From Rhodobacter sp. (GTDB lineage Bacteria > Pseudomonadota > Alphaproteobacteria > Rhodobacterales > Rhodobacteraceae), in the NCBI GenBank assembly GCA_027484145.1, contig JAIXUH010000007.1:1-64000 (forward strand): a stretch of 64,000 nt of DNA. The letters run 5' to 3'. The notes under the pieces were generated by a model. The model did not search any database. It had not been told where the DNA came from and saw only the letters and a program-made list of their open reading frames with translations. A program made the position numbers and the translations under genes. Of the stretch, positions 2,234 to 31,067 are shown piece by piece (position 1 is the first letter of the stretch; every line of letters starts with the position of its first letter).

Positions 2234-3451
2234 ATGGCAGACGACACCCGCACCAATCACCCCGGCTGGGGCGATGCCAGCCTTGCCATCCATGCCGGTG
2301 AACCGGTGGACCCGCACACCCGCGCCTCCTCGCCCAACCTCGTGATGTCGGCCACCTTTGCCCCGACCGAGGTGCCGGGTTTCTCCGCCCGCGATGGCCA
2401 CGGCTACGAAGGCTATGTCTATGCCCGCGTTGGCAGCCCCACCGTGGCGCAACTGGAAACCAAACTCGCCGCCCTCGAACGCGCCGAAGCCGCCCTGTGC
2501 TATGCTTCGGGCGTGGCGGCAGGCCATGCGCTGATCATGGGGCGGCTCTCGGCGGGTGATCACATCATCCTGCCCGAATCAAGCTATGTCGGCATTGCCG
2601 AACTGACGCGCGACACCCTGCCCCGCTTTGGCGTGCAGGCCAGCTTTGCCGATACCACGAACCCTGCCGCCGTTGCCGCCGCGATCCGGCCCGAAACAAA
2701 GATGCTGTGGATCGAATCGCCCTCGAACCCCACGATGCAGGTGTCAGACATCCGCCTTCTGGCCGACCTCGCCCATGCGCGCGGCGTGCGCGATGTGGCG
2801 GTCGATTCCACCTTTGCCACGCCGCTGGCCACCCGCCCGCTCGAACTCGGGGCCGATTTCGTCGTCCACTCCCTCACCAAATACATCGGCGGCCATGGCG
2901 ATGCGATGGGGGGTGCCGTTCTTGGCCGCAAGGCCGACCTTGCCGCCTTGGGGCTCGAGACGACGGTGCATTTCGGCGGCATCCTGTCGCCCTTCAACGC
3001 ATGGCTCATCCTGCGCGGCGCAGGCACCCTGCCCCTGCGGATGGAGGCGCATCAGGCCCGCGCCCTTGCCGTGGCCCAGCATCTGGAGGCGCATCCAGCA
3101 GTCAAGCGCGTGTTCTACCCCGGCCTGCCCTCGCACCCACAGCACGCCCTTGCCCGCGCCCAGATGAAGAACTTCTCCGGCATGCTGACCTTTCAAACCC
3201 ATGAATCCGGCCCCGCCGTCGCCGCGCGCATGGTCGAACGGCTGCAAATGGTGCACTTCGCCGTGTCCTTGGGCCATCACCGCAGCCTGATCTGCTGGAT
3301 CGGCACCAATGACATCAACACCTCCAGCTTCCGCCACGACGGCCCCGCCATGACCCGCTTCCGCGACTGGATGGGCGACGGCGTGTTCCGCATGTCGGTC
3401 GGCATCGAAGACGCAGAAGATATCTGCGCCGACCTTGATCTGTGCCTGTGA
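2234..3451 (+). CDS. Cys/Met metabolism PLP-dependent enzyme (trans-sulfuration family)
   Basis: 405-residue fold-type I PLP enzyme of the cystathionine gamma-synthase / beta-lyase / methionine gamma-lyase family, acting on sulfur amino acids in the cytoplasm. Family landmarks: YARVGSPTV near residue 62, the substrate/PLP region [28 protein letters not shown], and the Schiff-base lysine K216 in [16 protein letters not shown]. The C-terminal [18 protein letters not shown] matches the conserved SVG(I/L)E helix. AGGGGAACCACC precedes the ATG at 2234. Which reaction it catalyses (gamma-lyase, beta-lyase or synthase) cannot be settled from sequence reading. Monocistronic; a GGGCCG/CGGCCC hairpin lies at 3462-3480. 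Confidence 0.88.
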
Positions 3452-3461
3452 TCAGACGTTC

Positions 3462-3480
3462 GGGCCGCATCCTTCGGCCC
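3462..3480 (+). terminator. Weak hairpin after the PLP enzyme gene
   Basis: GGGCCG-CATCCTT-CGGCCC begins about ten bases after the stop codon. There is no T run after it, so it is either a weak terminator or an mRNA 3'-end stabiliser. Confidence 0.3.
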
Positions 3481-3535
3481 ATGTAACCGGTGCAAAGGCC
3501 AGCGGTCTGCCGGATCAAAACGAAAAGGGGCCTGA

Positions 3536-4117
3536 ATGCCTTGGAGTTTGGATGAACTTGGCCGCAGCGACGAAGTCGATATGGCCTATGCCGAAGGGCA
3601 GGCGCTGCCGCGCAACCTGTCCAAACCCACCACGAAACTGGACACGGCCCTGTGGCCGGTCAGGGTGTTCATCGCGCCCGACTGCAAGAACCCGGTGATC
3701 CCGGACTATACCAAGGGCCCGGCCATCGGCGTCGTCGTGGTCAGCGCAGCCTTCCGGCAACTGGTCGAAAGCCTTGATCCCCTGCCCCATCACTTCATTC
3801 CCATGCACATCACCTTTCCCGACGGCAGGGTGCAGACCGATACGCATTTCATCTTCAAGCTGGGCCAGTTCGTCGAAGGCGGCATCATTCCGGAACAGTC
3901 TGAAATCCGGGTCAACATGTGGCAAGGCGAAGTGTCCCATTACGGGGCCACGACCCTGTCGCCCCGCCTTATGTGGCGGGCCGAGGCTGTGGCAGGCCGC
4001 CACATCTGGGCAGACCGCCATCTGCCCGCCACGGTCGTCGTCTCCGACACACTCTTTGCCCGCATGAAGGCGCAGAACATGACCGGCTTTCTGGCGATCG
4101 AGGGGCGGATCGCCTGA
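3536..4117 (+). CDS. Imm11/DUF1629-like protein (possible orphan immunity protein)
   Basis: 193-residue soluble protein without signal peptide. The C-terminal stretch RHIWADRHLPATVVVSDTLF followed by MKAQNMTGFLAIEG resembles the signature of the DUF1629/Imm11 family (a basic, W-containing loop, then a hydrophobic strand and an LTGL-like turn). Imm11 members are predicted immunity proteins of polymorphic toxin systems, but many occur as orphans. Start: ATG at 3536, preceded by AAAAGGGGCCTGA. No toxin gene, secretion marker or other immunity gene lies beside it; neighbours are a PLP enzyme and a small membrane protein. The family call is from motif memory, and the biological role is inference. 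Confidence 0.6.
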   Translation: MPWSLDELGRSDEVDMAYAEGQALPRNLSKPTTKLDTALWPVRVFIAPDCKNPVIPDYTKGPAIGVVVVSAAFRQLVESLDPLPHHFIPMHITFPDGRVQTDTHFIFKLGQFVEGGIIPEQSEIRVNMWQGEVSHYGATTLSPRLMWRAEAVAGRHIWADRHLPATVVVSDTLFARMKAQNMTGFLAIEGRIA

Positions 4118-4450
4118 CCCCGCGCAGGATGCCTCGGGCAAGGCAGGCACGCAGGATGCGGCCAGATTTCCCAGTTTGGGCGAGACCAGCATGATCTGTC
4201 GTCGAACTCTGCGACATGGCCTTTGCCGCCGTCCATCAAGTCCATGCGATGCGGGCCCCTGCACGGGGCAGCCAAACGGGCAGCGTCAGCAGCACCTATG
4301 CAAGCAGCATAATGTTAAGAAAGCCGAGCCCTTATGGCTCGTCTGGGCAAGCACGGCCGGGTGATCGACCGTCTACCGCCACAGCCGCCTTGCACCAGAT
4401 CGTGCAACTCAACATGCTGTATCCAATGCGGTGGCAGGTCAGGATTTGCG
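4118..4450. other. Intergenic region with no recognised gene
   Basis: 333 bases between the Imm11-like gene and the small membrane protein gene. The ORFs of the track here (for example 4216-4887 +, 3515-4264 -) are overlapping shadows with no family resemblance I recognise. I see no clear hairpin-T-run terminator or tRNA. It may contain the promoter of the 4451 gene; it could also be eroded remains of an accessory gene. Confidence 0.4.
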
Positions 4451-4897
4451 ATGAAGAACTTTGCCCTGAAAACCGGGATCGATGCGCGGATCGTCTGGTT
4501 CATCCCGCTGGCAACCGCCCTGACTGTTGTGGTCTATCTCGCGCTCACCTGGGTGGTGTCGGGCGCGTGCCAACTTCCAGACGGTCAGATGCTGCCGGTG
4601 CTGCTGGTCTTCGCGGTTTACCTGATGCCCTTCACCCTGCCTTTCGCCCTCGGCAGTTGGGTGCTGGCCCGGCTGCTGTGCTGGAAAGCGCGCCTGTCCG
4701 AACACCGCTCAGCCATGCTTTCGGGTTTCCTCGCCGGTCTGGCTGCCACAACCGTACCGGTGCTGTGGTATATGCCCCAAACCATCAGGGCAGGCGTCAT
4801 CGCCCTTTCCCTGCCCGGCGCATTTGGCGGTCTGCTGGCAGGCGGTATCGTCTATTGGCCGGGCTGGGCGCTGCTCCCATGGGTTAACAAAGGGTAA
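4451..4897 (+). CDS. Small integral membrane protein of unknown function
   Basis: 148 residues, beginning MKNFALKTGIDARIVWF. Four hydrophobic stretches are evident: about residues 14-36, 47-68, 88-104 and 111-135, so it is probably a four-helix inner-membrane protein. I do not recognise a family. The ORF extends upstream to 4334, but the ATG at 4451 starts directly before the first charged segment and helix and gives a normal topology; no strong Shine-Dalgarno is visible. The gene converges on aroA and is followed by a 17-base palindrome that also occurs after ychF. Confidence 0.55.
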   Translation: MKNFALKTGIDARIVWFIPLATALTVVVYLALTWVVSGACQLPDGQMLPVLLVFAVYLMPFTLPFALGSWVLARLLCWKARLSEHRSAMLSGFLAGLAATTVPVLWYMPQTIRAGVIALSLPGAFGGLLAGGIVYWPGWALLPWVNKG

Positions 4898-6411: not shown

Positions 6412-7479
6412 ATGAATCGCAGACGCTTTATCAGGGGAACCGCCATCCTGTCCGCCCTCGGGCTGGCCGGGGGCGGTGCAGGCATGGCCATATCATCCGC
6501 ACGCAACCGCTATTATGCTGGCCCGCCGTCAGACCATTTTGATGGCGTGCGGTTCTTCAACCCCGAAGGCGTGCCGCCGGGCGGGTTCACCGACCTGCTG
6601 AAATGGCAGTTCAATGGCGCGCGGCAGAAGTGGCCCGAACGGGTGCCGCTGGCCGCCACCGCCAAACCTGCGGCCAAGGTGCAGGATCTGACCATCACCA
6701 TGGTGGGCCATGCGACCATGCTGATCCAGACGGCAGGCCTGAACCTGCTGACCGATCCGGTCTGGTCGGATCGCGCCTCGCCCCTCGCCTTTGCCGGGCC
6801 AAGGCGGGTGATCGCGCCGGGCATTGCCTTTGACGACCTGCCCCGCATCGATGCGGTGCTGCTGAGCCACAATCACTATGACCACCTTGATCTTGCCACG
6901 TTGCAGGCCCTGCACGCGGCGCATCGCCCGCAGATCATCACACCCTTGGGCAATGATGCCCTGATCCGCGCGGCGATTCCCGACGCAACTGTCACCGTGG
7001 GGGACTGGGGGCATCAGGTAGCGCTTGGGCCGCTGACACTTCATTTTGAACGTTGCCACCACTGGTCAGCCCGTGGCATGGGCGACCGATCGATGGCCCT
7101 ATGGGCGGCCTTTGTGATTGACGGTCCGGCGGGGCGCATCCTGCACATCGGCGACACCGGGTTTGACCAGGGCCGCCCCTACCGCGACCTGCCGGGCAAG
7201 CATGGGGCCATCCGCGCGGCCATCCTGCCCATCGGGGCCTATGAGCCGCGCTGGTTCATGCAAGGCCAGCACCAGAACCCGGACGAGGCGGTGCAGGGCT
7301 TTCACCTCTCGGGTGCCGCCTATGCCGTAGGGCACCACTGGGGCACGTTTCAGTTGACCGATGAGGCGCGCGACGCCCCGCTGACGGCGCTGGACGCGGC
7401 CCTTGCGAAGCATGCAGTTGCGCCAGACAGGTTCCGCCCGCTGGCACCGGGCGAGGTCTGGGCCATTCCGCCGGTCTGA
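6412..7479 (+). CDS. Metallo-beta-lactamase fold hydrolase with probable Tat signal (UlaG/NAPE-PLD-like)
   Basis: 355 residues. The N terminus MNRRRFIRGTAILSALGL has a twin-arginine-like RRRF followed by a hydrophobic stretch, suggesting Tat export or membrane anchoring. The MBL metal motif is SHNHYDHLDL (about residues 152-161), preceded by TMVGHATMLIQTAGLNLLTDP, with later metal ligands in FERCHHWSAR, HIGDTGFD and VGHHWGTFQ. The order and the LTDPVWSDRASP segment fit the UlaG / N-acyl-phosphatidylethanolamine phospholipase D-like branch. The substrate is unknown; lipid or phosphodiester hydrolysis is only a family-based guess. Its start lies about 100 bases from the divergent aroA start, so the two may share a promoter region. 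Confidence 0.8.
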   Translation: MNRRRFIRGTAILSALGLAGGGAGMAISSARNRYYAGPPSDHFDGVRFFNPEGVPPGGFTDLLKWQFNGARQKWPERVPLAATAKPAAKVQDLTITMVGHATMLIQTAGLNLLTDPVWSDRASPLAFAGPRRVIAPGIAFDDLPRIDAVLLSHNHYDHLDLATLQALHAAHRPQIITPLGNDALIRAAIPDATVTVGDWGHQVALGPLTLHFERCHHWSARGMGDRSMALWAAFVIDGPAGRILHIGDTGFDQGRPYRDLPGKHGAIRAAILPIGAYEPRWFMQGQHQNPDEAVQGFHLSGAAYAVGHHWGTFQLTDEARDAPLTALDAALAKHAVAPDRFRPLAPGEVWAIPPV

Positions 7480-7494
7480 GCCCCTGCGAGCGGA

Positions 7495-8190
7495 TCAGCC
7501 CGCGCGGCGGAAGGTCAGATAATGCGGCAGGCGGTCTTCGCGCAGGGCCTTTTGTTCATAGCGGGTGGAAATCCAATCCTCCCACGCCTGCCCTAGGCCC
7601 GATTGTGCGATCAGGTCAAACCCTGCCTGCGGCACCTCTTCCAGCGTCTGGCGGACGTAATCGGAGATGTCGGTTGCCACGCGGAACTCGGCCCCCGGTT
7701 TCATCGCGCGGGCCAAGAGGGCCAGATACCCCGGCGTAACAAAACGGCGGCGGTGGTGGCGCGCCTTTGGCCACGGGTCGGGATAGTTGAGGAACACCTT
7801 GTCCAGACTGGCCGCCGGCAACACATCGAACAGGTCACGCACATCGCCCGGATGGATGCACAGGTTGGTCACCCCGGCCTGCCGGATCTTGCCCAACAGC
7901 ATGGCGATGCCGTTCACGAAAGGCTCGGCCCCGATCAGGCCGATACCGGGATAGCGCGCCGCCATATGCACCAGATGCTCGCCCCCGCCAAAGCCGACCT
8001 CAAGCCATACCGGGCGGTCGCCGAAGAGTGCAGGCAGGTCAAGTGGCGTACGGGCCGGGTTTTCAGCTGGGCTGACGCCCTTGAGGCTGAGCGCCTCCAG
8101 ATCCTGCGCCAGATAGTCCTTCTGGCTGGCGCGCAGGGTCTTGCCATGCACACGGCCATAGAAATTCCGACGCTCTGCAGTTTCCGTCAT
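7495..8190 (-). CDS. trmB: tRNA (guanine-N7-)-methyltransferase
   Basis: Uses SAM to methylate G46 of the tRNA variable loop. 231 residues starting MTETAERRNFYGRVHGK. The SAM-binding motif is VWLEVGFGGGEHLVHMA, and the family-specific NYPDPWPKARHHRRRFV follows. The ORF runs 42 codons further upstream without family-like sequence, so the ATG at 8190 is used. In relatives trmB lies immediately downstream of metK; here a plus-strand ChaC-like gene and a minus-strand lipoprotein gene lie between metK and trmB. Confidence 0.95.
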   Translation of the reverse strand: MTETAERRNFYGRVHGKTLRASQKDYLAQDLEALSLKGVSPAENPARTPLDLPALFGDRPVWLEVGFGGGEHLVHMAARYPGIGLIGAEPFVNGIAMLLGKIRQAGVTNLCIHPGDVRDLFDVLPAASLDKVFLNYPDPWPKARHHRRRFVTPGYLALLARAMKPGAEFRVATDISDYVRQTLEEVPQAGFDLIAQSGLGQAWEDWISTRYEQKALREDRLPHYLTFRRAG

Positions 8191-8255
8191 GCCTGCCACC
8201 CGTGCCCAAGATCGCGGCGTGGTGTCAGAACGCAAGGCTATGGTCAAGCGGTGCG

Positions 8256-9002
8256 CTACTGCAAGCGCGCCGGAACGGGCTTGCCCGCCTGCCGGAACAT
8301 GCGCCGTTCCGCCCAATCAAGATAGGTCATCAGGCGCGGCATCGACGGGTTGTGCGTGGCGATGAAGAACTTGGTGCCGCGCATAGCGGATTTCTTGATG
8401 TAGTCGGGCAACTCCGCGATTGCGGTGTCGGGAACGGCAGCCTTGGTGGCTTCGGGCGGCACGTTGGCCTCGCTCCACCTTGGGCCGCCCAGCCAGACGG
8501 CCGAGAACATCAGTTGCGCCTTGGGCACAGGCGTGCCCCCCGCCACCAACCCGTCGTAGAACATGCGGTGCACCTCTTGCCACGGGCGCGACTGATAACG
8601 CGGCCCCGCCTCATTGCCGATGCCGCAATAGGCATCATGCAGGGCAGCGGCATTCACGAATTCGGGCGAGCGCGGGTCACCGACGATGGGAATGAACAGA
8701 TCGGGGATCGAGGCGCCATCGGTCAGGGTGCGGGTGGGGGCAATCCAAGTTGCGGCCTTGGCATCGACGAAATCCAGCCGGTCCACGGTGGGAAAGAACT
8801 GCAGGCTGCGACCGGGAAGGGAGACAGGGGCGGGTGAAAGCCGGACGGGCGAGTTGCGGAAAAAGCAGTTCGCGGCGGGCTGGCATTCGCCCGCCAAACC
8901 GGGGCCATCCGGATTCGGCGCCACCTTTGGGGCCGGGGCACAAGCCGACATCAGCCCAATCAGGCCGAACCATCCCAAAACCAACGCCAGCTTTGCCATC
9001 AT
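8256..9002 (-). CDS. Predicted lipoprotein with DUF1353-like domain
   Basis: 248 residues beginning MMAKLALVLGWFGLIGLMSAC: a short charged start, hydrophobic core and lipobox LMSAC, so a lipoprotein anchored after signal peptidase II cleavage. The mature part contains the block TLTDGASIPDLFIPIVGDPR followed by ALHDAYCG, which is the typical DUF1353 arrangement (DGAS-P ... HD-C). DUF1353 also occurs in phage proteins; its biochemical role is not known. The second codon ATG (8999) is an alternative start. Upstream is a divergent region of 257 bases shared with the ChaC-like gene, with no strong signals I can read. Confidence 0.68.
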   Translation of the reverse strand: MMAKLALVLGWFGLIGLMSACAPAPKVAPNPDGPGLAGECQPAANCFFRNSPVRLSPAPVSLPGRSLQFFPTVDRLDFVDAKAATWIAPTRTLTDGASIPDLFIPIVGDPRSPEFVNAAALHDAYCGIGNEAGPRYQSRPWQEVHRMFYDGLVAGGTPVPKAQLMFSAVWLGGPRWSEANVPPEATKAAVPDTAIAELPDYIKKSAMRGTKFFIATHNPSMPRLMTYLDWAERRMFRQAGKPVPARLQ

Positions 9003-9259
9003 GCCATCCCGCACCATCCGAACGAATCGTAAGGCCAAACCGGGACGGGCGCAATGAATGGGTGAATTTCACAACAAACCTATGGCCTTAACAGAACAGG
9101 TCCGCCAGTGCCGCGGATCAGGACAGCATCACGCAGGACCGGGCCAATTTGCCCGGCCGCGTGGAAATTCAAGGCTGATGGTGGTATGCTGATCCGGCAC
9201 CGGACTAGCGCCGCCCTGCGCGGCTGTTGCACCGAACCAAAACGCAAGGATGCCGGACG

Positions 9260-21070: not shown

Positions 21071-22168
21071 ATGGGTTTCAAGATGGGTATCGTGGGTCTG
21101 CCGAATGTCGGCAAGTCGACCCTGTTCAACGCGCTGACCCGCACCGCCGCCGCGCAGGCCGCGAACTTTCCCTTCTGCACGATCGAGCCGAACGTGGGCG
21201 AAGTGGCCGTGCCTGATGCGCGGCTGGACAAACTCGCCGCCATTGCAGGCAGCAAGCAGATCATCCCCACCCGGATGACCTTTGTCGACATCGCCGGTCT
21301 GGTGCGGGGCGCGTCAAAGGGTGAGGGCTTGGGCAACCAGTTCCTCGCCAACATCCGCGAATGCGACGCCATCGCCCATGTGCTGCGCTGCTTTGAAGAC
21401 GGCGACATCACTCATGTCGAGGGCCGCATCGACCCCGTGGCCGATGCCGAGACCATCGAGACGGAACTGATGCTGGCCGATCTGGAATCGATCGAGCGCC
21501 GCCTTGCCAACCTCGCCAAAAAGCTGCGCGGCGGCGATCAGGACACGCTGGATCAAGACCGCCTGCTGAAAGCCGCCCTTGCCGCGCTCAGCGACGGCAA
21601 ACCCGCCCGCACGGTGAAGATCGCGGCCGAGGATGACCGGCAGTGGCGGATGCTGCAGCTTTTGACCGCAAAGCCGGTGCTGTTCGTCTGCAACGTCGAG
21701 GAATCCTGCGCCGCCAACGGCAACAGCCAATCCGCCCGCGTGGCCGAGATGGCCGCCAAACAAGGCGCGGCATCGGTGGTCATCTCGGCCCGGATCGAGG
21801 AGGAAATCTCGCAACTCGCCGCCGATGAGGCCGCGATGTTTTTGGAGGAGATGGGCCTGCAGGAACCGGGGCTGGACCGCCTGATCAAGGCGGGCTACGC
21901 GCTGCTGGGCCTGCGGACCTATTTCACCGTCGGCCCCAAGGAGGCCCGCGCCTGGACGATCGAGGCGGGTTGGCTGGCCCCCCGCGCGGCAGGCGTGATC
22001 CACGGCGATTTCGAGAAAGGCTTCATCCGGTCGGAAACCATCGCCTATGAGGACTATATCGCCGGAAATGGCGAGGTGGGGGCCAAGGAAGCCGGCAAGT
22101 TCCGCGTCGAGGGCAAGACCTATGAGGTCAAGGACGGCGACGTGCTGCACTTCCTGTTCTCGGGCTGA
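21071..22168 (+). CDS. ychF: Redox-regulated ATPase YchF (Obg-like)
   Basis: Obg-family P-loop NTPase that prefers ATP and associates with ribosomes. 365 residues. G1 motif GLPNVGKST at residues 9-17, then the switch region NFPFCTIEPNVG, G3 DIAGLVRGASKGEGLGN, a coiled-coil insertion (about 130-200) and a C-terminal TGS-like domain (TYFTVGPKEARAWTIEAG to KDGDVLHFLFSG). GGGAGAG precedes the ATG. A TGTCCC/GGGACA hairpin element begins right after the stop codon. Confidence 0.97.
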   Translation: MGFKMGIVGLPNVGKSTLFNALTRTAAAQAANFPFCTIEPNVGEVAVPDARLDKLAAIAGSKQIIPTRMTFVDIAGLVRGASKGEGLGNQFLANIRECDAIAHVLRCFEDGDITHVEGRIDPVADAETIETELMLADLESIERRLANLAKKLRGGDQDTLDQDRLLKAALAALSDGKPARTVKIAAEDDRQWRMLQLLTAKPVLFVCNVEESCAANGNSQSARVAEMAAKQGAASVVISARIEEEISQLAADEAAMFLEEMGLQEPGLDRLIKAGYALLGLRTYFTVGPKEARAWTIEAGWLAPRAAGVIHGDFEKGFIRSETIAYEDYIAGNGEVGAKEAGKFRVEGKTYEVKDGDVLHFLFSG

Positions 22169-22365: not shown

Positions 22366-23070
22366 TTAATGGTAGTTGCCGTCTTCCGAGAACACTTCGC
22401 GCGCGAGGGCGAGATGATGGCGGGCGGTGTCCAGATGGGTTGCGTTTGGCGTCAGCGCGTGCCGCGCAAGGGCGAGGTCGGCAAGGTTCCATTGGGTTTG
22501 CGCCCAAAAGAAAGGGACAATCTCGCGGGTCCGCTGTATCAGGGAAGCAGCAAACGCCGACGCCGCATCCTCGACAATCGCAAAGTCGCCTGCAACCTCT
22601 CCCAGCCAACGCAATGCGAAACCAAGATTGTTCTGCGACGCTGCCCATTCCATCGGCGCAGCCTTTTGCGTGCGGACGGTGAGAGCGGCGAAGTGTGCAT
22701 CCATAGCCTGTCGCAGTAGCGCGGGGTCGGCACAGTGTTTGCCAAGGTATTGCAAGGCGACACCAAGGTTGTTTTGCGATGTAGCCCATTCATTTGGCGC
22801 CGTCTGAGACGTATACACGGTGAGGGTGGCACGATGAGCCTCGACAGCCCATTGCATCAGGTCAGCGTCATCGGTCCGGTGACCGAGTTCTTGAAGGGCA
22901 GTCCCAAGGTTGTTCTGCGCCATTGCCCAGTCCAGCGGCCCAACATTTTTTGTCCAGACTTGAAGGCACGCCCGATGGGCATTGATTGCCTGTGAAAGCA
23001 AGCTGTAGTCGGCGTTGCGTATGCCAAGTTCACTTAGGGCGCTGCCTAAGTTGGTTTGGAAAATTGCCCA
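22366..23070 (-). repeat. Five tandem 141-bp repeat units (TPR array)
   Basis: The 3' part of the HTH-TPR gene consists of five units of exactly 141 bp (47 codons; the last includes the stop codon), 705 bp in all. In the protein each unit opens WAxxQxNLG-AL. At DNA level the segment CAAGGTTGTTCTGCG or a close variant recurs at 22623, 22764, 22905 and 23046. Confidence 0.9.
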
Positions 23071-24018
23071 GTCATGCGGATTGCGTTGACGCGGGGTGAT
23101 GGTTAGAGCTTTTTCAAAGGCGTTGCGGGCGCGGGTCAGGTGGCCGCCGCCGGATTGCGTTTCGCCGATAGCGCGGTGGCAGTTGCCGAGGTCGTTCAGG
23201 GCAGCTGCAATCTGTAGCCGCTTGGCACGATCAAGGTTGATGCGGGCAAGTTCGAGGGCGAGAGCAAGATCGAAGGGGTCGCCCAGCCGTTCACCTTGCT
23301 CACGCGTTTGAATGACTAGGTTCTGAATGGCATTGAACAAACCGCCCGGCGGGGCCGACGCACGTAGGCGGGCGATCAGGCGTTTCGCGGCGGTGGCGGG
23401 GTTGTTGCGCAGGCGGTCCTGTTTCAGGGCGGCCTCGTGCAGCCCTTCCAGTTCCGCCTCTTTCGCCTTGATCGCAGCATCCAATGCCTCGCCCGCCTCC
23501 TCTCGCAGGCCCTGATCGTTCAGGTCGGCCACGCGGCGCAGGATGGCGGCGAGGCGGTCATCAAGGTTGTGCAGGCGGTCGAGTTCGGCGCGCATGTCGG
23601 CCGCCGTCTGCAGGGCGTTGCGCAGGCCGGTGTAGGCGGTGGACAGGTCGAGAAACCTGCCACCCGCGAATTCATAGGCAAGTGCGATCACCAAAGCCTC
23701 GGCCTGCGGGGCGGCAGGGTCGGCATCGTTGCGGCGGATCAGGTTTTCAGCGACGCGGTCCTCTCGCGTCACCTCATCTTCCTGTGCGGGTGCAAAAAGG
23801 AGCGGGCGCGTGACGGATTCCGGCAGGTCGAGGACGCGCGCAAGGTTGCCGATGGTGAGCGCGGACAGTGGCCGTTTGCCGTTTTCGATCTGGCTGACAT
23901 AGCCTTTGCGTTCGGGATTGTTGAGGGCGGTCTGGGCAAGGGCTTCCAACGTCCAGCCCTTGCGGACACGCGCCTCGCGCACGTGGTTGCCAAACTCCCT
24001 CAGACCCTGCGGTGTCAC
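22366..24018 (-). CDS. XRE-type HTH protein fused to a tetratricopeptide repeat array
   Basis: 550 residues from a GTG start (VTPQGLREFGNHVREARVRKG). Residues about 5-65 form an XRE/Cro-type helix-turn-helix (LEALAQTAL ... KGYVSQIENGKRPLSALTIGNLARVLDLPE). A helical middle region with a probable coiled coil (DEALDAAIKAKEAELEGLHEAALK-like) follows. From about residue 265 come TPR units, the last five exactly 47 residues long, with the motif WA-xx-QNNLG-AL-xx-LG. Arrays of this WAxxQNNLG type often accompany CHAT or STAND proteins, but no effector domain is fused here. Probably a ligand- or partner-sensing repressor. The base composition looks lower in GC than the neighbours. The start is uncertain because the ORF continues upstream. 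Confidence 0.75.
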   Translation of the reverse strand: MTPQGLREFGNHVREARVRKGWTLEALAQTALNNPERKGYVSQIENGKRPLSALTIGNLARVLDLPESVTRPLLFAPAQEDEVTREDRVAENLIRRNDADPAAPQAEALVIALAYEFAGGRFLDLSTAYTGLRNALQTAADMRAELDRLHNLDDRLAAILRRVADLNDQGLREEAGEALDAAIKAKEAELEGLHEAALKQDRLRNNPATAAKRLIARLRASAPPGGLFNAIQNLVIQTREQGERLGDPFDLALALELARINLDRAKRLQIAAALNDLGNCHRAIGETQSGGGHLTRARNAFEKALTITPRQRNPHDWAIFQTNLGSALSELGIRNADYSLLSQAINAHRACLQVWTKNVGPLDWAMAQNNLGTALQELGHRTDDADLMQWAVEAHRATLTVYTSQTAPNEWATSQNNLGVALQYLGKHCADPALLRQAMDAHFAALTVRTQKAAPMEWAASQNNLGFALRWLGEVAGDFAIVEDAASAFAASLIQRTREIVPFFWAQTQWNLADLALARHALTPNATHLDTARHHLALAREVFSEDGNYH

Positions 24019-24162
24019 TATGTGTAACCTTTGATCTACTGCCTGACTCTTTGTGTCATCCGGGTGGTCCTGACCAGACCTGCCCGACCGCGTAAATTTG
24101 GGATTGTCGCGACACGACCTCAACTTAGGCGGGCCCGCTGCATCATCGCAAAGGAAAAATCG

Positions 24163-24336
24163 ATGACGTGGCTGAATGTGCTTCTGGACGGACTGAATGC
24201 AATCCTGTGGCTGGGAACGGCACAGGGGATCAACGCGCTGCTTGCGCTGACCTGTGTGTTGGCGGCGATGGGGGCGTCGCCGCGGGTGATCTTGTGGCTG
24301 ACCGCGCTTTTGCATGTGGTCTTGATGGGCCTGTGA
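24163..24336 (+). CDS. 57-residue membrane peptide of unknown function
   Basis: MTWLNVLLDGLNAILWLGT opens a peptide with two hydrophobic segments (about residues 4-35 and 39-56) and almost no charged residues. AAGGA lies eight bases before the ATG. It is divergent from the HTH-TPR gene (144 bases between starts), which may regulate it. I recognise no family. It resembles small hydrophobic stress or toxin-like peptides only in general composition. Confidence 0.5.
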   Translation: MTWLNVLLDGLNAILWLGTAQGINALLALTCVLAAMGASPRVILWLTALLHVVLMGL

Positions 24337-24426
24337 CGGCGTGATCCGCGCGTTGTGCAAAGCGGAGGGATAGGTGCGCCTTTCCCTCTTGCCGCCCCTG
24401 CGCGGGTTGTTTAAATGAGGGTTGTC

Positions 24427-24516
24427 GGAAGCGTGGCTGAGAGGCCGAAAGCACTCGGTTGCTAACTGAGCGTAGGGGGAACCCTACCGTGGGTTCGAAT
24501 CCCACCGCTTCCGCCA
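24427..24516 (+). tRNA. tRNA-Ser (anticodon GCT)
   Basis: 90 bases including an encoded CCA. Acceptor stem GGAAGCG/CGCTTCC, anticodon stem CTCGG/CTGAG around loop TTGCTAA with anticodon GCT at 24461-24463, long class II variable arm CGTAGGGGGAACCCTACC, T arm GTGGG-TTCGAAT-CCCAC. Reads AGC/AGT serine codons. Confidence 0.97.
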
Positions 24517-24690
24517 CACTCCCTTGCGATGAGCGTTGAACTGGCTGGCGTGACGCGTGTTGCGGTGGCTACCGGTGGGCGCGGGTCAGTTGCGGCATGG
24601 GTCAGGGCCGGGGGCGCGCCTCTTTCATCCTCCCGTCTGGTCGGCAGGCATGGTATCAGCGGGCCAGGGGAGCGGGGCTTTGGGGGCATC

Positions 24691-26496
24691 ATGGCGGGCA
24701 TGTTCAAATCCCTGATCGGGGGCGCCTTGCTGGCGGGCGTGGTGCTGTTTGGCCTTGTGGTCGAGCGGATGGCCACCCGCAATGCATTGGCCGACGGGCT
24801 GGACCGGGCCGAGACGACCCTGCGCCAGACGCTGAACGGGCTTGAGGGGCATTTGCGGCGGTTCGAGGCCTTGCCCGCCCTTCTGGCGCGGAACCAGAGC
24901 GTTCGCGACGTGCTGGCTGCGCCCGATGACCCGGCCCGCCTTGCGGCGATGAACGCGTGGCTGGCCGAGACGAATGCGCTGATCGAGGCGTCGGACCTGT
25001 ATCTGATCGATCTGGCGGGCACCACGATCGCCGCCTCGAACCATGCGCGCAGTGACAGCTTTGTGGGCCAGAACTTTTCGTACCGGTCCTATTTCACCGA
25101 GGCGCGTGACGGGCGATCGGGGCATTTCTTCGCGCTTGGCACCACCTCGGGCGTGCGGGGGTATTACTTTGCCTCGCCGGTGCAGGATGAGGGCGGGCAG
25201 ATCGTCGGGGTGCTGGCCCTGAAGATCGGGGTGGATGAGATCGAAGCCGCGTGGCGCGCCCGTGACTACCGCATCCTTGTCAGCGATCCGGACGGGATCG
25301 TGTTCATGTCAACCGATCCGGGGTGGCTGTACCACGGGCTGTTGCCGCTGGCCCCGGACCAGTTGGCGCGGATCACGGCGTCACGGCGCTATGCCGATGC
25401 CACGCTGAGCGCGCTGCAGGTCCAGCGGACCACCACGGGCGGCGTGCAACTGATGCGGCTGGCCGATGCGGACGGGTCGGCGCATGAGTATATCGCGACC
25501 GAGCGGGCAATGCCGCAGGCGCGCTGGACGGTGCGGGTGCTGCTGGATACCGCGCCGATCCGGGCGCAGGCGCGGCTGGTGGTGCTGGCCTTTGCGCTGC
25601 TTTTGACCGTCGCGCTGTTGCTGGGCTGGACGGTGCTGCAGCGCCGCGCGCGGCTGGCCGAGCGGCTGGCCATTCAGGCGGCGGCGCAATCAGATCTGGA
25701 GCGACAGGTGGCGGAACGGACGGCCGACCTGACCCGCGCCAACGACGACCTGCACCGCATGCAGGCCGATCTGGTGCAGGCGGGCAAACTGGCCGCGCTG
25801 GGGCAGATGTCGGCCGCGCTGAGCCATGAGATCAACCAGCCTCTAGCGGCCGCGCGCAACTATGCGGAAAGCACGGGGTTGTTGATCGACCGCAACGATC
25901 TGCCGCGCGCCAAGGAAAACGTGGGGCAGATTCTGACGCTGATCGACCGGATGGCCGCGATTGCCCGCCATTTGCGCAACGTGGCCCGCAAGCCCAATGA
26001 GCCGTTGAAGGCGGTTGATCTGCGCGCCGTGGTCGCCGACTCGGTCGTTATCGCGCGAACCCGGCTGGATGCGGCCGATGCCACGGTCTCGCTGGCGCTG
26101 CCCGATGATCTGCCACCGGTACAGGGCGGGCCGGTGCGCCTGCAGCAGGTGATCGTCAACGTGCTGTCGAACGCGGCCGATGCGGTGGAAGGCACGGCTG
26201 ACCGCCGCATCGCCATTTCGGCCCAAACGACGGCAGAGGATGAGATTACCCTTTTGATCCGCGACCATGGCCCCGGTGTGGCCCCGGCCATTGCCGACCG
26301 CATCTTTGACCCGTTCTTTACCACCAAGCAGGTGGGGTCCGGCCTTGGGCTGGGATTGTCGATCAGCTATAACATCATGAAGGATTTCGGCGGCGACCTG
26401 CGGCTGGCCAACCACCCCGACGGCGGCGCCGAATTCCGGCTGGTGCTGCGGCCCGCCCGTTCGCAGGCCCCGTCAAAGGCTTTGGCTGCGGAATGA
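24691..26496 (+). CDS. C4-dicarboxylate-type sensor histidine kinase (DctB-like)
   Basis: 601 residues. First transmembrane helix about 6-24; periplasmic double-Cache-type sensor region about 28-285 with the DctB-like NFSYRSYFTEARDGRSGHFF and GYYFASPV; second helix about 292-312 (VVLAFALLLTVALLLGW); a coiled linker; HisKA with phosphoacceptor H379 in ALSHEINQPLAAARNYAES; HATPase with NVLSNAADAVEG, DHGPGV and GSGLGLGLS. Predicted to sense a carboxylate outside and phosphorylate the adjacent regulator. The ATG at 24691 (MAGMFKSL) sits right before the first helix; the ORF upstream to 24529 looks non-coding. Its stop overlaps the next start (ATGA). Confidence 0.88.
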   Translation: MAGMFKSLIGGALLAGVVLFGLVVERMATRNALADGLDRAETTLRQTLNGLEGHLRRFEALPALLARNQSVRDVLAAPDDPARLAAMNAWLAETNALIEASDLYLIDLAGTTIAASNHARSDSFVGQNFSYRSYFTEARDGRSGHFFALGTTSGVRGYYFASPVQDEGGQIVGVLALKIGVDEIEAAWRARDYRILVSDPDGIVFMSTDPGWLYHGLLPLAPDQLARITASRRYADATLSALQVQRTTTGGVQLMRLADADGSAHEYIATERAMPQARWTVRVLLDTAPIRAQARLVVLAFALLLTVALLLGWTVLQRRARLAERLAIQAAAQSDLERQVAERTADLTRANDDLHRMQADLVQAGKLAALGQMSAALSHEINQPLAAARNYAESTGLLIDRNDLPRAKENVGQILTLIDRMAAIARHLRNVARKPNEPLKAVDLRAVVADSVVIARTRLDAADATVSLALPDDLPPVQGGPVRLQQVIVNVLSNAADAVEGTADRRIAISAQTTAEDEITLLIRDHGPGVAPAIADRIFDPFFTTKQVGSGLGLGLSISYNIMKDFGGDLRLANHPDGGAEFRLVLRPARSQAPSKALAAE

Positions 26497-27836
26497 AGCA
26501 GACAGTCCTTTTGATTGACGATGATGAGGCGATGCGCCGTTCGACCGAGCAGGCGCTGGAGCTTGCCGGTTTTTCGGTGCAGTCGCTGTCCAGTGCCGAA
26601 CAGGGCCTTGCGCTGATCAGCCCCGGCTTCAATGGCGCGGTCATTTCCGACATCCGCATGCCCGGCATGGATGGGATGAGCCTGCTGGAGCGCCTGACCC
26701 TTGCCGACCGTGACCTGCCCGTGATCCTGATCACCGGCCATGCCGAGGTCAGCCTTGCGGTGGAGGCGATGCGGCGCGGGGCCTATGACTTCATCGAAAA
26801 GCCGTTCAGCACGCAGGCGCTTGCCGCCGTGCTGCGCCGCGCGTTGGACCGCCGCGCGCTGGTGATCGAAAACCGCCGCCTGCGGGCCGCCGCCGGGCAG
26901 CGCGATGATCTGGAGGCCCGCCTGCCCGGACGCAGCAGCGCGGTGATCGACCTGCGGCGTCTGGTCCGCACCCTTGGCCCGTCTGAGGCCGATGCGCTGA
27001 TCACCGGGCCAACCGGCGCGGGCAAAGAGGTGGTGGCGCAGGTCATGCACGACCTTTCGCCGCGCGCAGGCCGCCCCTTTATTGCCATCAACTGTGCCGC
27101 CCTGCCCGCGCAACTGATTGAACGTGAGTTGTTCGGCCACGAGGCTGGTGCCTTTCCGGGGGCCATGCGCCCGCGCTTTGGCCGCTTTGAACATGCGCGC
27201 GGCGGCACGATCCTGCTGGATGAGATCGGGTCCATGCCGCTGGAGTTGCAGGCCCGTCTGCTGCGGGTCTTGCAGGACAGGGTCATCATGCGGCTGGGGT
27301 CGAATGATCCCATCGCGCTGGATGTGCGCTTTCTGGCCACGTCAAAGGCCGATCTGGCGCAAGCCGTGGCGACGGGGGCATTCCGGCAAGACCTGCTGTA
27401 TCGGCTGGCCGTGGCAACCGTCCGCGTACCGCCGCTTTCGGCCCGCCGCGAGGATATTCCGCTGTTGTTCCTGCAACTGGTCCGCGAAGCCGCCGCCCGC
27501 CACGGGGTCGAAGACCGCGTGCCGGAACCCGAATTGCTGGCCGACCTTTCCGCCCGCGACTGGCCCGGCAACGTGCGCGAATTGCGCAACGCCGCCGACC
27601 GCTTTGTGCTGGACCTTGACTGGATGGAAGGGGCGGGGTCGGCCACGCCCCGTCTGGCCGAGCGTGTGGCGGGGTTTGAACGAAGCGTGATTGCGGGGGC
27701 CATCGCGGCGCATCGGGGACATCTTCGCAAGGTCTACGAATCGCTCGGGATCAGCCGAAAGACGCTGTACGAGAAGATGCAAAAGCACGGGCTGGACCGC
27801 CGCCTGATCGTCGACGGGGACGAGGCCGAAGGCTAG
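26493..27836 (+). CDS. DctD-type AAA+ response regulator with altered sigma-54 loop (GAFPGA)
   Basis: 447 residues. Receiver domain 1-120 with phosphoacceptor D53 in VISDIRMPGMDG and K in EKPFST; AAA+ domain about 140-370; Fis-type HTH at the C terminus (HLRKVYESLGISRKTLYEKMQKHG). Walker A reads GPTGAGKE (consensus GESGTGKE), Walker B GTILLDEIGSMPLE. The loop that contacts sigma-54 reads GAFPGA (residues 219-224) where GAFTGA is near-invariant. This suggests weakened or sigma-54-independent activation. Overlaps dctB-like by four bases and lies 204 bases before tctC, its likely target. Confidence 0.88.
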   Translation: MKQTVLLIDDDEAMRRSTEQALELAGFSVQSLSSAEQGLALISPGFNGAVISDIRMPGMDGMSLLERLTLADRDLPVILITGHAEVSLAVEAMRRGAYDFIEKPFSTQALAAVLRRALDRRALVIENRRLRAAAGQRDDLEARLPGRSSAVIDLRRLVRTLGPSEADALITGPTGAGKEVVAQVMHDLSPRAGRPFIAINCAALPAQLIERELFGHEAGAFPGAMRPRFGRFEHARGGTILLDEIGSMPLELQARLLRVLQDRVIMRLGSNDPIALDVRFLATSKADLAQAVATGAFRQDLLYRLAVATVRVPPLSARREDIPLLFLQLVREAAARHGVEDRVPEPELLADLSARDWPGNVRELRNAADRFVLDLDWMEGAGSATPRLAERVAGFERSVIAGAIAAHRGHLRKVYESLGISRKTLYEKMQKHGLDRRLIVDGDEAEG

Positions 27837-27847
27837 GCGCGCGCCGA

Positions 27848-27898
27848 TGGGTGGAAATCCACCCAGCCGTTCAGGCGGGTTGGGGCCATTTCCACCCA
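27848..27898. promoter_or_regulatory. Two 18-bp dyads, probable activator sites upstream of tctC
   Basis: Site 1 (27848-27865) is the perfect palindrome TGGGTGGA-AA-TCCACCCA. Site 2 (27881-27898), TGGGGCCA-TT-TCCACCCA, keeps the right arm exactly and five of eight bases of the left arm. The centres are 33 bp apart, about three helical turns, so both face the same side. They lie about 145-190 bp before the tctC ATG, a usual position for enhancer-type sites of NtrC/DctD regulators. No TGGCAC-N5-TTGC promoter was found between them and tctC. Confidence 0.6.
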
Positions 27899-28040
27899 AA
27901 TTGCCCCATGCTGCCCGCAGAACCCGCCGCTGGACGCCCGGTTTCTTTTGCCAGCCCCCCCGAAATGCGCCCCCGTAAGCACAACCGTGCCGGGGAGGAA
28001 AACCGCACGGGGCAACATTGGCCACGTCTGGGAGGACACC

Positions 28041-29018
28041 ATGGCATTGACGACGAAACTCGCCGGCCTCGCCGCCGGCGCGGTGATGGCCGCATCTGCA
28101 GCCATCGCGCAAACCTATCCCGACCGGCAGGTCACCATGGTGGTGCCCTTTGCCGCCGGAGGCCCGACCGATACGGTGGGCCGCCTGATCGCCGAACGCA
28201 TGTCGGCGGACCTTGGCCAGCAGATCATCGTGGAAAACGTGGGCGGCGCGGGCGGCACGCTGGGCGCAGGGAATGTGGCAACCGCCGAGGCGGATGGCTA
28301 CACCGTGCTGTTGCACCATATCGGCATGGCCACCAGCGCCACGCTGTATCGCAACCTTGCCTACAATCCGCTGGAAGCCTTTGAATATGTTGGCCTTGTG
28401 ACCGAGGTCCCCATGACCATCGTCACCCGCAAGGATTTTGAACCGACCGATTTTGCGTCGTTCATCACCTATGTGAAGGAAAACGCCGACACCATCACCA
28501 TGGCCAATGCCGGCATCGGGGCGGCCTCGCATCTGTGCGGGATGCTGTTCATGCAGGCGATCAAAGCACCGATCGTGACCGTGCCTTACAAGGGGACCGG
28601 GCCTGCGATGACGGAACTGCTGGGCGGTCAGATCGACATCATGTGCGACCAGACCACCAACACCGCCGAACAGATCAAGGGTGGCACGATCAAGGCCTAT
28701 GCCGTGACAACGCCCGCCCGACTGGACATCTTCCCCGACCTGCCGACGGTGGCCGAAGGTGGCTTTCCGGGCATGGAAGTGTCGGTCTGGCACGGCCTTT
28801 ACGCGCCCAAGGGCACCCCGGCCGAGGTGATTGACCGCCTGTCAGCCTCGCTGCAGTCGGCCTTGGCTGATCCGGAGATCGCGGCAAAGCTGGCAGAACT
28901 GGGCACAGCCCCTTCGCCCGCCACGGATGCGACGCCTGCCGCGCTGAAGGCCAAGCTGGAGGGCGAAATCGCCCGCTGGAAGCCGATCATCGAAACTGCC
29001 GGCGTTTACGCCGACTGA
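28041..29018 (+). CDS. tctC: Tripartite tricarboxylate transporter substrate-binding protein (TctC family)
   Basis: Periplasmic solute-binding protein that captures a carboxylate (tricarboxylate or related acid) and delivers it to the TctAB membrane part. 325 residues with signal peptide MALTTKLAGLAAGAVMAASAAIAQ. Typical family blocks: YPDRQVTMVVPFAAGGPTDTVGRLIA, ENVGGAGGTLGAGNVA, VPYKGTGPAMTELLGGQIDIMCDQ and FPDLPTVAEGGFPGMEVSVWHGLYAPKGTP. GGGAGGACACC precedes the ATG. First gene of tctC-tctB-tctA; the actual substrate cannot be deduced from sequence. Confidence 0.93.
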   Translation: MALTTKLAGLAAGAVMAASAAIAQTYPDRQVTMVVPFAAGGPTDTVGRLIAERMSADLGQQIIVENVGGAGGTLGAGNVATAEADGYTVLLHHIGMATSATLYRNLAYNPLEAFEYVGLVTEVPMTIVTRKDFEPTDFASFITYVKENADTITMANAGIGAASHLCGMLFMQAIKAPIVTVPYKGTGPAMTELLGGQIDIMCDQTTNTAEQIKGGTIKAYAVTTPARLDIFPDLPTVAEGGFPGMEVSVWHGLYAPKGTPAEVIDRLSASLQSALADPEIAAKLAELGTAPSPATDATPAALKAKLEGEIARWKPIIETAGVYAD

Positions 29019-29033
29019 TCGCAGAGCAAAAAA

Positions 29034-29058
29034 GGGGGGCGCACATCCTGCGCCCCCC
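29034..29058 (+). terminator. Intercistronic hairpin between tctC and tctB
   Basis: GGGGGGCGCA-CATCC-TGCGCCCCCC, a ten-pair stem 16 bases after the tctC stop and about 30 bases before tctB. GTTTCG follows. Probably a partial terminator or mRNA stabiliser that lets the binding protein be made in excess over the membrane subunits, as in many solute-binding transporter operons. Confidence 0.7.
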
Positions 29059-29087
29059 GTTTCGATGGGCGAGGGGAGGCGCTTTTC

Positions 29088-29552
29088 ATGAAAAACATAA
29101 CCGTCGACTGGACCGATGCCATGGCCGGTCTGATCTTTATCCTGTTCGGCCTGCTGTTCGGGGTGCAATCGCTGGGGCTGGAAATCGGCACGGCCTTTCG
29201 CATGGGGCCGGGGTATTTTCCGCTGGTGCTGTCGGGCATCCTGTTGGTGCTGGGCGGGCTGATCGTGTTCAGCGCGATCCATGACCGGGGTGGCGAAGGC
29301 GTGGGCAAGATGGCGTGGCGGGGGCTGTTCTTCATCCTGCCGGCGCCGATCTTTTTCGGGCTGACCGTGCGCGGCCTTGGCTTTGTTCCGGCGATTTTCC
29401 TGACCACGCTGGTGGCGGCGCTTGCCTCGTTCAAGATGCGGCCCCTGTGGGCGCTGGTTCTTGCGGGTGCGGTCACCGTCTTTGCCACTTTGGTGTTTTC
29501 ATACGGCCTTGGCCTGCCCTTCCGGCGCTTTGGCCCCTGGCTTGAATTCTGA
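29088..29552 (+). CDS. tctB: Tripartite tricarboxylate transporter TctB family protein
   Basis: Small membrane subunit of the TTT carrier. 154 residues with four transmembrane helices (about 12-30, 43-63, 80-100, 117-145), the canonical TctB topology, and the early GTAFRMGPGYFPLVLSGILLVLG segment typical of the family (RMGPGYFP). Sits between tctC and tctA with nine bases to the tctA ATG, so cotranslated with it. Confidence 0.9.
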   Translation: MKNITVDWTDAMAGLIFILFGLLFGVQSLGLEIGTAFRMGPGYFPLVLSGILLVLGGLIVFSAIHDRGGEGVGKMAWRGLFFILPAPIFFGLTVRGLGFVPAIFLTTLVAALASFKMRPLWALVLAGAVTVFATLVFSYGLGLPFRRFGPWLEF

Positions 29553-29561
29553 GGCGCATAC

Positions 29562-31067
29562 ATGGACCTGCTTTCAAACCTTTCGCTTGGCTTTGCCACA
29601 GCCGCCTCGCCCGAGAACCTGCTGTTTTGCCTGATCGGGGTGATCCTTGGCACATTGATTGGCGTTTTGCCCGGCATCGGGGCCACGGCGACCATCGCCA
29701 TGCTGCTGCCGATCACCTTTCAGCTGGAACCCGTGTCGTCGCTGATCATGCTGGCCGGGATTTATTATGGCGCGCAATACGGCGGCTCGACCACGGCGAT
29801 CCTGATCAACATGCCGGGCGAAAGCTCGTCCGCCGTGACGGCCATTGATGGCTATCAGATGGCGCGAAGGGGCAAGGCTGGCACCGCGCTTGCCGTGGCG
29901 GCGCTTGGGTCGTTCTTTGCCGGCACCGTGGCCACTCTGCTGGTGGCGCTGTTTGCCCCGCCCCTGACCGCCATCGCCCTGAAATTTGGCGCGGCCGAGT
30001 ACTTCAGCCTGATGCTGCTGGGCCTTGTCTCGGCCATTGCACTTGCGCACGGGTCCATCCTCAAGGCGCTTGCGATGGTTGTCCTTGGCCTGATCCTTGG
30101 GCTGGTCGGCACCGACATCTATACCGGCGCACCACGCTTTACCTTTGGCATCACCGAATATGCCGATGGCCTCAGCTTTGTGGCGCTTGCCGTCGGCATC
30201 TTCGGCATCGCCGAAATCCTGCGCAACCTTGAGGGCGATCAGGACCGCACGGTGCTTGGCACCAGCCTTGGCGGGCTGCTGCCCTCACGCGCGGATCTGA
30301 AGCGGATGGTGGCCCCGATGTTGCGTGGTACGGCGGTGGGGTCCATCCTTGGCATTCTGCCGGGCGGTGGTGCGGTTCTGGCAGCCTTTGCCTCCTATAC
30401 CATTGAAAAGCGCCTGTCGGATCACCCTGAAGAGTTTGGTCAGGGCGCGATTGCCGGGGTAGCCGGGCCGGAATCGGCCAATAATGCCGGGGCGCAAACC
30501 AGCTTTATCCCGCTGTTGACGCTGGGCATTCCGGCGAACCCGGTAATGGCGCTGATGGTGGGCGCGATGATCATTCAGGGCATTGTGCCGGGGCCGAACG
30601 TCGCCAGTGAACAGCCCGAGTTGTTCTGGGGCATCATCGCCAGCATGTGGATCGGCAACCTGATGCTGGTGGTGCTGAACCTGCCACTGATCGGGCTCTG
30701 GGTCAAACTTCTGAAAGTGCCGTATCATGTGCTCTTTCCGGTGATCATGGCGTTCTGTTCTATCGGGGTTTATTCGGTCAACTCGAACGTGTTTGACCTT
30801 TACGCCGTCGCGTTCTTTGGCCTGATGGGCTATGTCCTGCTCAAACTGCGGTGCGAGCCTGCGCCATTGCTGTTGGGCTTTGTCCTTGGCCCGATGCTGG
30901 AGGAAAACCTGCGCCGTGCCATGATCCTTGGCCGGGGGGACCCGACGATCTTTGTCGCGCGCCCCATCAGCCTGACGCTGCTGTTGCTGACACTGGCCGT
31001 TCTGGTGGTGATGTTCCTGCCGTCGATCCGCAAAAAGCGCGAAGAGGTGTTCGTCGAAGCCGACTGA
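29562..31067 (+). CDS. tctA: Tripartite tricarboxylate transporter permease TctA
   Basis: Large membrane subunit that moves the substrate with an ion gradient. 501 residues, about 12 hydrophobic segments. Family motifs: IGVLPGIGATATIAMLLP near residue 35, YYGAQYGGSTTAILINMPGE, GILPGGGAVLAAFASYTIEK and the later AGPESANNAGAQTSFIPLLTLGIP. These glycine-rich repeats are the hallmark of TctA. Followed by a GGGCGGCC/GGCCGCCC hairpin. Confidence 0.95.
   Translation: MDLLSNLSLGFATAASPENLLFCLIGVILGTLIGVLPGIGATATIAMLLPITFQLEPVSSLIMLAGIYYGAQYGGSTTAILINMPGESSSAVTAIDGYQMARRGKAGTALAVAALGSFFAGTVATLLVALFAPPLTAIALKFGAAEYFSLMLLGLVSAIALAHGSILKALAMVVLGLILGLVGTDIYTGAPRFTFGITEYADGLSFVALAVGIFGIAEILRNLEGDQDRTVLGTSLGGLLPSRADLKRMVAPMLRGTAVGSILGILPGGGAVLAAFASYTIEKRLSDHPEEFGQGAIAGVAGPESANNAGAQTSFIPLLTLGIPANPVMALMVGAMIIQGIVPGPNVASEQPELFWGIIASMWIGNLMLVVLNLPLIGLWVKLLKVPYHVLFPVIMAFCSIGVYSVNSNVFDLYAVAFFGLMGYVLLKLRCEPAPLLLGFVLGPMLEENLRRAMILGRGDPTIFVARPISLTLLLLTLAVLVVMFLPSIRKKREEVFVEAD

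Follow-up and report, generated by a model that had tools for sequence, protein, structure and literature searches.

What could join a DNA-binding protein that ends in a regular array of TPRs to the tiny open reading frame (ORF) that faces it across a short intergenic region? The question is raised by a locus in a 64,000-nucleotide stretch of Rhodobacter sp. contig JAIXUH010000007.1 (assembly GCA_027484145.1), hereafter called the window. The initial annotation had proposed, from the window alone, that a helix-turn-helix (HTH) domain fused to TPRs acts as a sensor-repressor and that the divergent ORF encodes its membrane-active target. The gene structure on which this proposal was built is confirmed. 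Pfam recognises both an XRE-type HTH (HTH_3, E=1.1e-7, residues 13-67) and TPRs (TPR_10, E=3.8e-8) in the 550-residue product of the leftward gene, and the 57-residue ORF lies divergently from it, the two start codons being 144 bp apart (Table 1). In profile comparison the HTH resembles the restriction-modification controller proteins C.BclI and C.AhdI, while in alignments the middle region of the protein is also present in TPR paralogues that carry no HTH. The AlphaFold2 model is all-helical (mean pLDDT 83, confidence being low mainly in residues 76-151 and at the C-terminus) and displays a superhelical TPR fold, the best of the 50 PDB matches listed being LGN/Pins, kinesin light chain (KLC) and designed or consensus TPRs; no RRNPP receptor is among these 50.

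Table 1. Features of the regulator-peptide locus (positions in the window)
Feature	Positions	Strand	Basis and remarks
XRE-HTH/TPR sensor-regulator gene	22366-24018	-	550-aa ORF, GTG start; Pfam, AlphaFold2, homologues
TPR array, five 47-residue units (four clear, one degenerate)	22372-23076	-	lag-47 self-identity, unit table
Helical middle region (residues about 85-265)	23224-23766	-	alignments; helices in predicted model, confidence low at residues 96-151
XRE-type helix-turn-helix domain (residues about 9-67)	23818-23994	-	Pfam HTH_3; profile comparison
10-bp-phased direct repeats (TGTCA 24013, TGTAA 24023, TGACT 24044, TGTCA 24054)	24013-24061		probable operator; overlaps HTH start codon
Small palindrome TGTCGCGACA	24105-24114		direct reading of loci, no separate statistic
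GC palindrome GCGGGCCCGC	24129-24138		centre 29 nt before peptide ATG, just upstream of Shine-Dalgarno site
Shine-Dalgarno-like AAAGGA of peptide gene	24150-24155	+	sequence; AAGGA-like site recurs across loci
Hydrophobic peptide gene, 57 residues, type A	24163-24336	+	ORF, profile matches, pN/pS, model

The period of the TPR array is exact, since self-identity of the protein reaches 43% at a lag of 47 residues, as against 4-11% at all other lags between 30 and 60. The array had been described as five units of exactly 141 bp. The 47-residue period stands and four units are clear (residues 315-502), but the fifth is degenerate, being 15-19% identical to the others. The accompanying claims of DNA-level conservation and of recent internal duplication do not survive closer comparison. 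The 15-mer CAAGGTTGTTCTGCG is exact only at 22905 and is imperfect at 22623, 22764 and 23046, its recurrence there being due to conservation of the QNNLG motif at the protein level. Compared pairwise, the units share 32-59% of their DNA and 26-47% of their third positions, different codons are used at 8 of the 24 residues that are identical between the first and second units, and Tandem Repeats Finder detects no array at these repeats. Recently duplicated units are therefore rejected by codon comparison, and the repeats are old. A separate locus, L087, contains a long series of 47-residue TPR units that are nearly identical (7077-9080), a pattern that suggests active repeat expansion at that place.

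The peptides collected from related loci fall into two alignable types. Type A, that of the window, comprises 50-58 residues with the consensus MxWxLxxxLxxxxTAQxxNLxFAxLCLxAAxGxxPRxxAxLxAxLYxxL. Type B, mostly 54-65 residues long, usually has a lysine-rich start followed by CHRAxYAxLAxxHGxGCxxxxKPExYxPxAxLYxxLAxRG. For all peptide pairs above 45% identity, pN/pS lies between 0.25 and 0.67 with pS between 0.53 and 0.96, figures that are raw proportions near saturation and hence rough, overstating the ratio. Because pN/pS is this low while pS is near saturation, the ORF is under purifying selection as a protein. Its predicted fold, of moderate confidence (pLDDT 74), consists of an N-terminal helix (residues 2-15) and a helical hairpin (20-35 and 40-56). 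Hydrophobic in sequence and helical in the predicted model, the peptide may have a membrane role. The family has no model in Pfam, PADLOC or PHROGs, and its NCBIfam and Pfam matches are few, weak and limited to single members; those to ZnuA-like, holin, YbjQ and other models were dismissed as isolated, weak and inconsistent.

Co-conservation of the two genes was assessed with profiles of both peptide types in 397 Rhodobacteraceae genomes, essentially one per genus, and with the type-B profile in a second set of 385 genomes spread over the class. Profile matches reach E=1e-30 across about 27 genomes, and in the 397 genomes the strong ones lie almost only beside XRE-HTH sensor genes. The type-A profile finds 13 strong places (E<1e-7), the next match falling at E=0.002. 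Four of them were outside the model: the peptides of L175 and L176 face HTH-TPR genes beside gatB (frameshifted in L176), and the other two are at ychF, where the L131 peptide adjoins an HTH-TPR gene that has decayed and L177 retains an N-terminally truncated peptide remnant and no HTH gene. With the type-B profile, 19 places were found in 16 of the 397 family genomes and one in the class-wide set. Eleven of the places, one of them from another family, had not been used for the model, and nine of these face an HTH sensor gene (L085, L123, L201-L206, L209), the partner being frameshifted in L085, split in its reading frame and partly masked in L202, and running off the contig in L205. The two others are L207, where the gene opposite the peptide is a TPR fragment that has lost most of the HTH, and L208, at a contig end. 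For both types together, 11 of the 15 outside-model matches face an HTH sensor gene (three of them broken), two adjoin modules that have decayed, and the last two are an orphan remnant and a match at a contig end. The reverse test started from the regulator: a peptide is found beside 18 out of 18 HTH-bearing homologues with an undecayed HTH region, divergent and about 100-170 bp upstream in every case. L139-L142, found by the HTH query, have the peptide as well; since the type-B model was built with them, they are not blind for it. The HTH-less TPR paralogues L086, L088, L089, L090, L091 and L132, which serve as a negative control, have no divergent peptide ORF upstream, and G253, G314, G348 and G429, where the match starts after the HTH, gave no strong peptide match in the type-A and type-B profile searches. 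Peptide profiles thus find HTH genes and HTH genes find peptides, and the pairing conjectured from the window is strong both ways and across unrelated neighbourhoods: regulator and peptide are co-conserved in scattered marine-type Rhodobacteraceae.

Three insertion sites recur, with neighbours named by sequence reading: ychF (the window, L082, L083, L122, L125, L129, L131, L177), gatB (L130, L175, L176, L123, L201, L203, L205) and tldD/cysQ (L087, L128, L206). The gatB site also hosts the non-HTH TPR paralogue L132. Two modules per genome are present in G035, G069, G285 and G358; a search for a close pair in Shimia, the genus of G302, yielded no second intact copy. At L203 (G285:C12), a second XRE-HTH gene adjoins the module (3382-4842 of the flipped locus). 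The six HTH-less paralogues, one of which (L091) is in the same genome as the window (G000:C25, about 74-76 kb), differ in their N-terminal region, which includes a hydrophobic stretch; they may be versions with a membrane effector fused in cis.

The intergenic DNA carries two conserved elements. Near the HTH start, autocorrelation over 34 loci gives z=13 at a lag of 10 bp and z=5 at 20 bp, all other lags being at or below 2.7; in the window alone the lag-10 signal is modest (z=1.6). The repeated core is locus-specific (GTCA, AACT or GTAAC). The four-mer content of the repeat region correlates with HTH identity (r=0.39, permutation maximum 0.23), shared ancestry contributing to this correlation, whereas the corresponding value for peptide identity is 0.08. 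This difference argues that the phased repeats are the probable operator of the HTH protein. Closer to the peptide gene lies the second element, a perfect palindrome 10 bp or more in length. It is present in 25 of 35 loci, as against 2.9% of random positions, with its centre 22-39 bases ahead of the peptide ATG; over all loci, inverted repeats reach z=7. Its sequence varies widely from locus to locus (for instance GGCGGGCCCGCC, GACCTGCGCAGGTC, AACAGAGCGCTCTGTT and AGCTGGGCCCAGCT) and follows the HTH only loosely, since the palindromes of L083 and L126 differ while their HTH domains are 79% identical. Because self-complementarity extends through the centre, a simple RNA hairpin with an unpaired loop does not account for the element; a binding site for a dimeric protein would, and so would an RNA that pairs with another copy of the same RNA. 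Between 22000 and 24700, Rfam reports no known RNA family above cut-off except the tRNA. In several type-A loci TGTC-N0-2-GACA recurs at the place that matches the small palindrome of Table 1.

The part of the regulator that follows the HTH is exchangeable. Among loci the sensor arm consists of 47-residue TPRs, 50-residue TPRs, TPR_12 repeats (a strong array in L141, from Cohaesibacteraceae) or a NACHT/STAND-like ATPase (L142, from Pseudooctadecabacter, whose sensor region gives weak, below-cut-off matches to AAA_16 and NACHT). L129 and L201 have peptides that are 72% identical and HTHs that are 38% identical. Over the collected loci, the distances between peptides and between HTHs correlate with r=0.32 (permutation maximum 0.20-0.25).

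The two-way pairing, the HTH-less negative control, pN/pS, the phased repeats, the exchange of sensors and the recurrent sites together lead to a hypothesis that I regard as evenly poised between right and wrong, namely that the pair is a two-gene switch in which the HTH-TPR protein represses a membrane-active peptide until the TPR arm senses a ligand. The divergent promoter region of 144 bp would be bound by the HTH-TPR protein at its 10-bp-phased direct repeats; once bound, the protein would repress its own gene as well as the peptide gene. The TPR arm, replaced elsewhere by another TPR array or by the NACHT/STAND-like ATPase, would bind a protein or peptide ligand. Ligand binding would free the operator, the 57-residue peptide would be made, and its helix and helical hairpin would insert into the inner membrane, disturbing it. 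What I infer is that the regulator represses, that its arm senses a ligand, and that the peptide inserts into the membrane and is toxic; the HTH protein could be an activator instead of a repressor. The L207 peptide, kept despite a mostly deleted HTH, looks awkward for a strongly toxic peptide, and the conserved palindrome is outside what the switch explains. A role in cell defence or in the stress response would suit a module whose arms are exchangeable, whose distribution is patchy and whose insertion sites recur. A more specific proposal, possible but doubtful, is that of an undescribed conflict module of Alphaproteobacteria, in which interchangeable HTH-fused arms would guard one tiny membrane-active peptide family via the phased-repeat operator, so that detection of an invader would trigger transcription of a membrane killer. 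PADLOC returned only HTH- or controller-type matches for the regulator, none for the peptide and no matching defence system.

One alternative is a toxin-antitoxin pair, in which the HTH-TPR protein would also bind and neutralise the peptide, part of which would lie in the TPR groove. LGN/KLC-type TPR superhelices are known to bind extended peptides, and the predicted HTH-TPR fold matches this type. The correlation between peptide and HTH distances agrees with such an interaction, as do the peptides of L131 and L177, which are without their N-terminal part where the HTH gene is decayed or gone. However, like peptides occur with unlike arms (TPR versus NACHT-like) or with unlike HTHs (L129 and L201), which a tight protein pair would not readily allow, and L207 has a peptide without most of the HTH. 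The arrangement also differs from that of type II systems with an XRE antitoxin: although both are two-gene modules with an XRE regulator and a patchy distribution, sometimes in two copies per genome, the genes studied here are divergent in every locus examined and not co-transcribed from one promoter, a hydrophobic helical peptide takes the place of an enzyme as small partner, and the XRE regulator, at 400-1300 residues, is a sensor. With regard to type I systems, the peptide is hydrophobic by its sequence and helical by its predicted model. Neutralisation of the peptide by its regulator seems rather unlikely.

A second alternative reverses the roles, the peptide being the sensor: as a membrane protein it would tether the HTH-TPR protein, and under envelope stress it would let the latter go to regulate other genes. 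The hydrophobic hairpin, the often cationic N-terminal helix, the ability of TPR arms to bind short helices and the compactness of the divergent pair would suit such a role. Yet the arm is exchangeable while the peptide is conserved, the opposite of what is expected if the arm recognises the peptide, and I hold this scheme to be unlikely. A third alternative comes from the Rgg regulators of groups I and II, in which a short hydrophobic SHP peptide gene is divergent from an XRE-HTH/TPR receptor (PMC13361665). By analogy, the peptide would be a pheromone that is exported, processed and re-imported to bind the TPR arm and switch the HTH. The layout is the same, with an XRE-HTH fused to C-terminal TPRs and a small hydrophobic peptide gene next to it. 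However, the conserved peptide of 50-65 residues with its helical-hairpin region seems unlike a short pheromone, the PDB matches listed include LGN, KLC and designed TPRs but no RRNPP receptor, and peptides are conserved beside unrelated sensor arms, the NACHT-like ATPase included. The TPR units, of 47 or 50 residues and replaceable by other TPRs or by that ATPase, also set the module apart from RRNPP systems, which surveys have covered only in Firmicutes and viruses (PMC10075063), whereas the present pair is from Alphaproteobacteria. Pheromone signalling is thus improbable. Finally, that the small ORF is a chance one in a regulatory region where only DNA is conserved would accord with its lack of a Pfam, PADLOC or PHROGs family, but is contradicted by pN/pS below 1 across the peptide family, and by the profile E-values, the conserved start spacing and the Shine-Dalgarno site, which make it extremely improbable.

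The switch hypothesis has relatives among known systems. TPR sensors of the WAxxQNNLG type occur in conflict proteins (CHAT, STAND and similar). The regulator shares this TPR type, and the NACHT/STAND-like L142 uses the same HTH and peptide; unlike those proteins, however, it has no effector in cis, the candidate effector being the separate divergent peptide. For the small inner-membrane peptides TisB and DinQ, which are under SOS control, a transcription factor is reported to guard the gene (PMC8309996, PMC3567139). A repressor-guarded small membrane peptide would be the common feature, whereas the regulator studied here is dedicated, divergent and fused to its own sensor arm, and none of the library families matches the peptides. 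Both membrane peptides guarded by a repressor and pairs of an XRE-TPR protein with a peptide are known kinds already. The regulator-peptide pairing itself was not found described in the open-licence papers searched, which is weak evidence, and the pair is probably an undescribed two-gene switch controlling a membrane-active peptide. Proteins below 60 residues escape annotation, and here the profile of a small peptide leads to its regulator in different genera. Should the peptide be membrane-active, an exchangeable protein sensor would be coupled directly to transcription of a membrane effector, and TPR and NACHT/STAND-like sensing would be linked to a peptide encoded in trans. About 35 natural promoter regions are available for matching operator sequence to HTH sequence.

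The initial annotation had also placed the module next to tRNA-Ser, in a segment of different base composition. The tRNA-Ser(GCT) is located at 24427-24516, but its link to the module did not hold: the nearest congener, G005, keeps the tRNA and the 48 bp upstream (91% identity over 24379-24516) without the module, and has about 650 bp of unrelated DNA between tRNA-Ser and ychF. The gene pair is absent from all 15 congeners, two of which give weak TPR matches. A tRNA-integrated island was rejected, as the module is on the 5' side and not at the tRNA 3' end, and G005 has the tRNA without it; judged by these sequence comparisons, the tRNA-Ser neighbourhood is incidental. The segment has a GC content of 61.0%, as against 62.8 ± 2.0% for stretches of the same size (25th percentile), and a compositional island was discarded because this value is in the normal range of the window; GC3 of the HTH-TPR gene is 0.69 versus 0.76-0.84 for its neighbours. 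A phage or plasmid element was likewise rejected, there being no match in phage records and a sole, partial match in plasmid records (41%, HTH part only, in a 2.8-Mb Methylobacterium replicon); the peptides match neither phage nor plasmid records. A tRNA-Trp called by ARAGORN at 21446-21515 on the minus strand falls within ychF (21071-22168), and the call is a probable false positive. To the right of tRNA-Ser (24529-31067), sequence reading points to a sensor histidine kinase (24529-26496), a sigma-54-type response regulator (26493-27836) and genes that resemble those of a tripartite tricarboxylate transporter (TctC/B/A).
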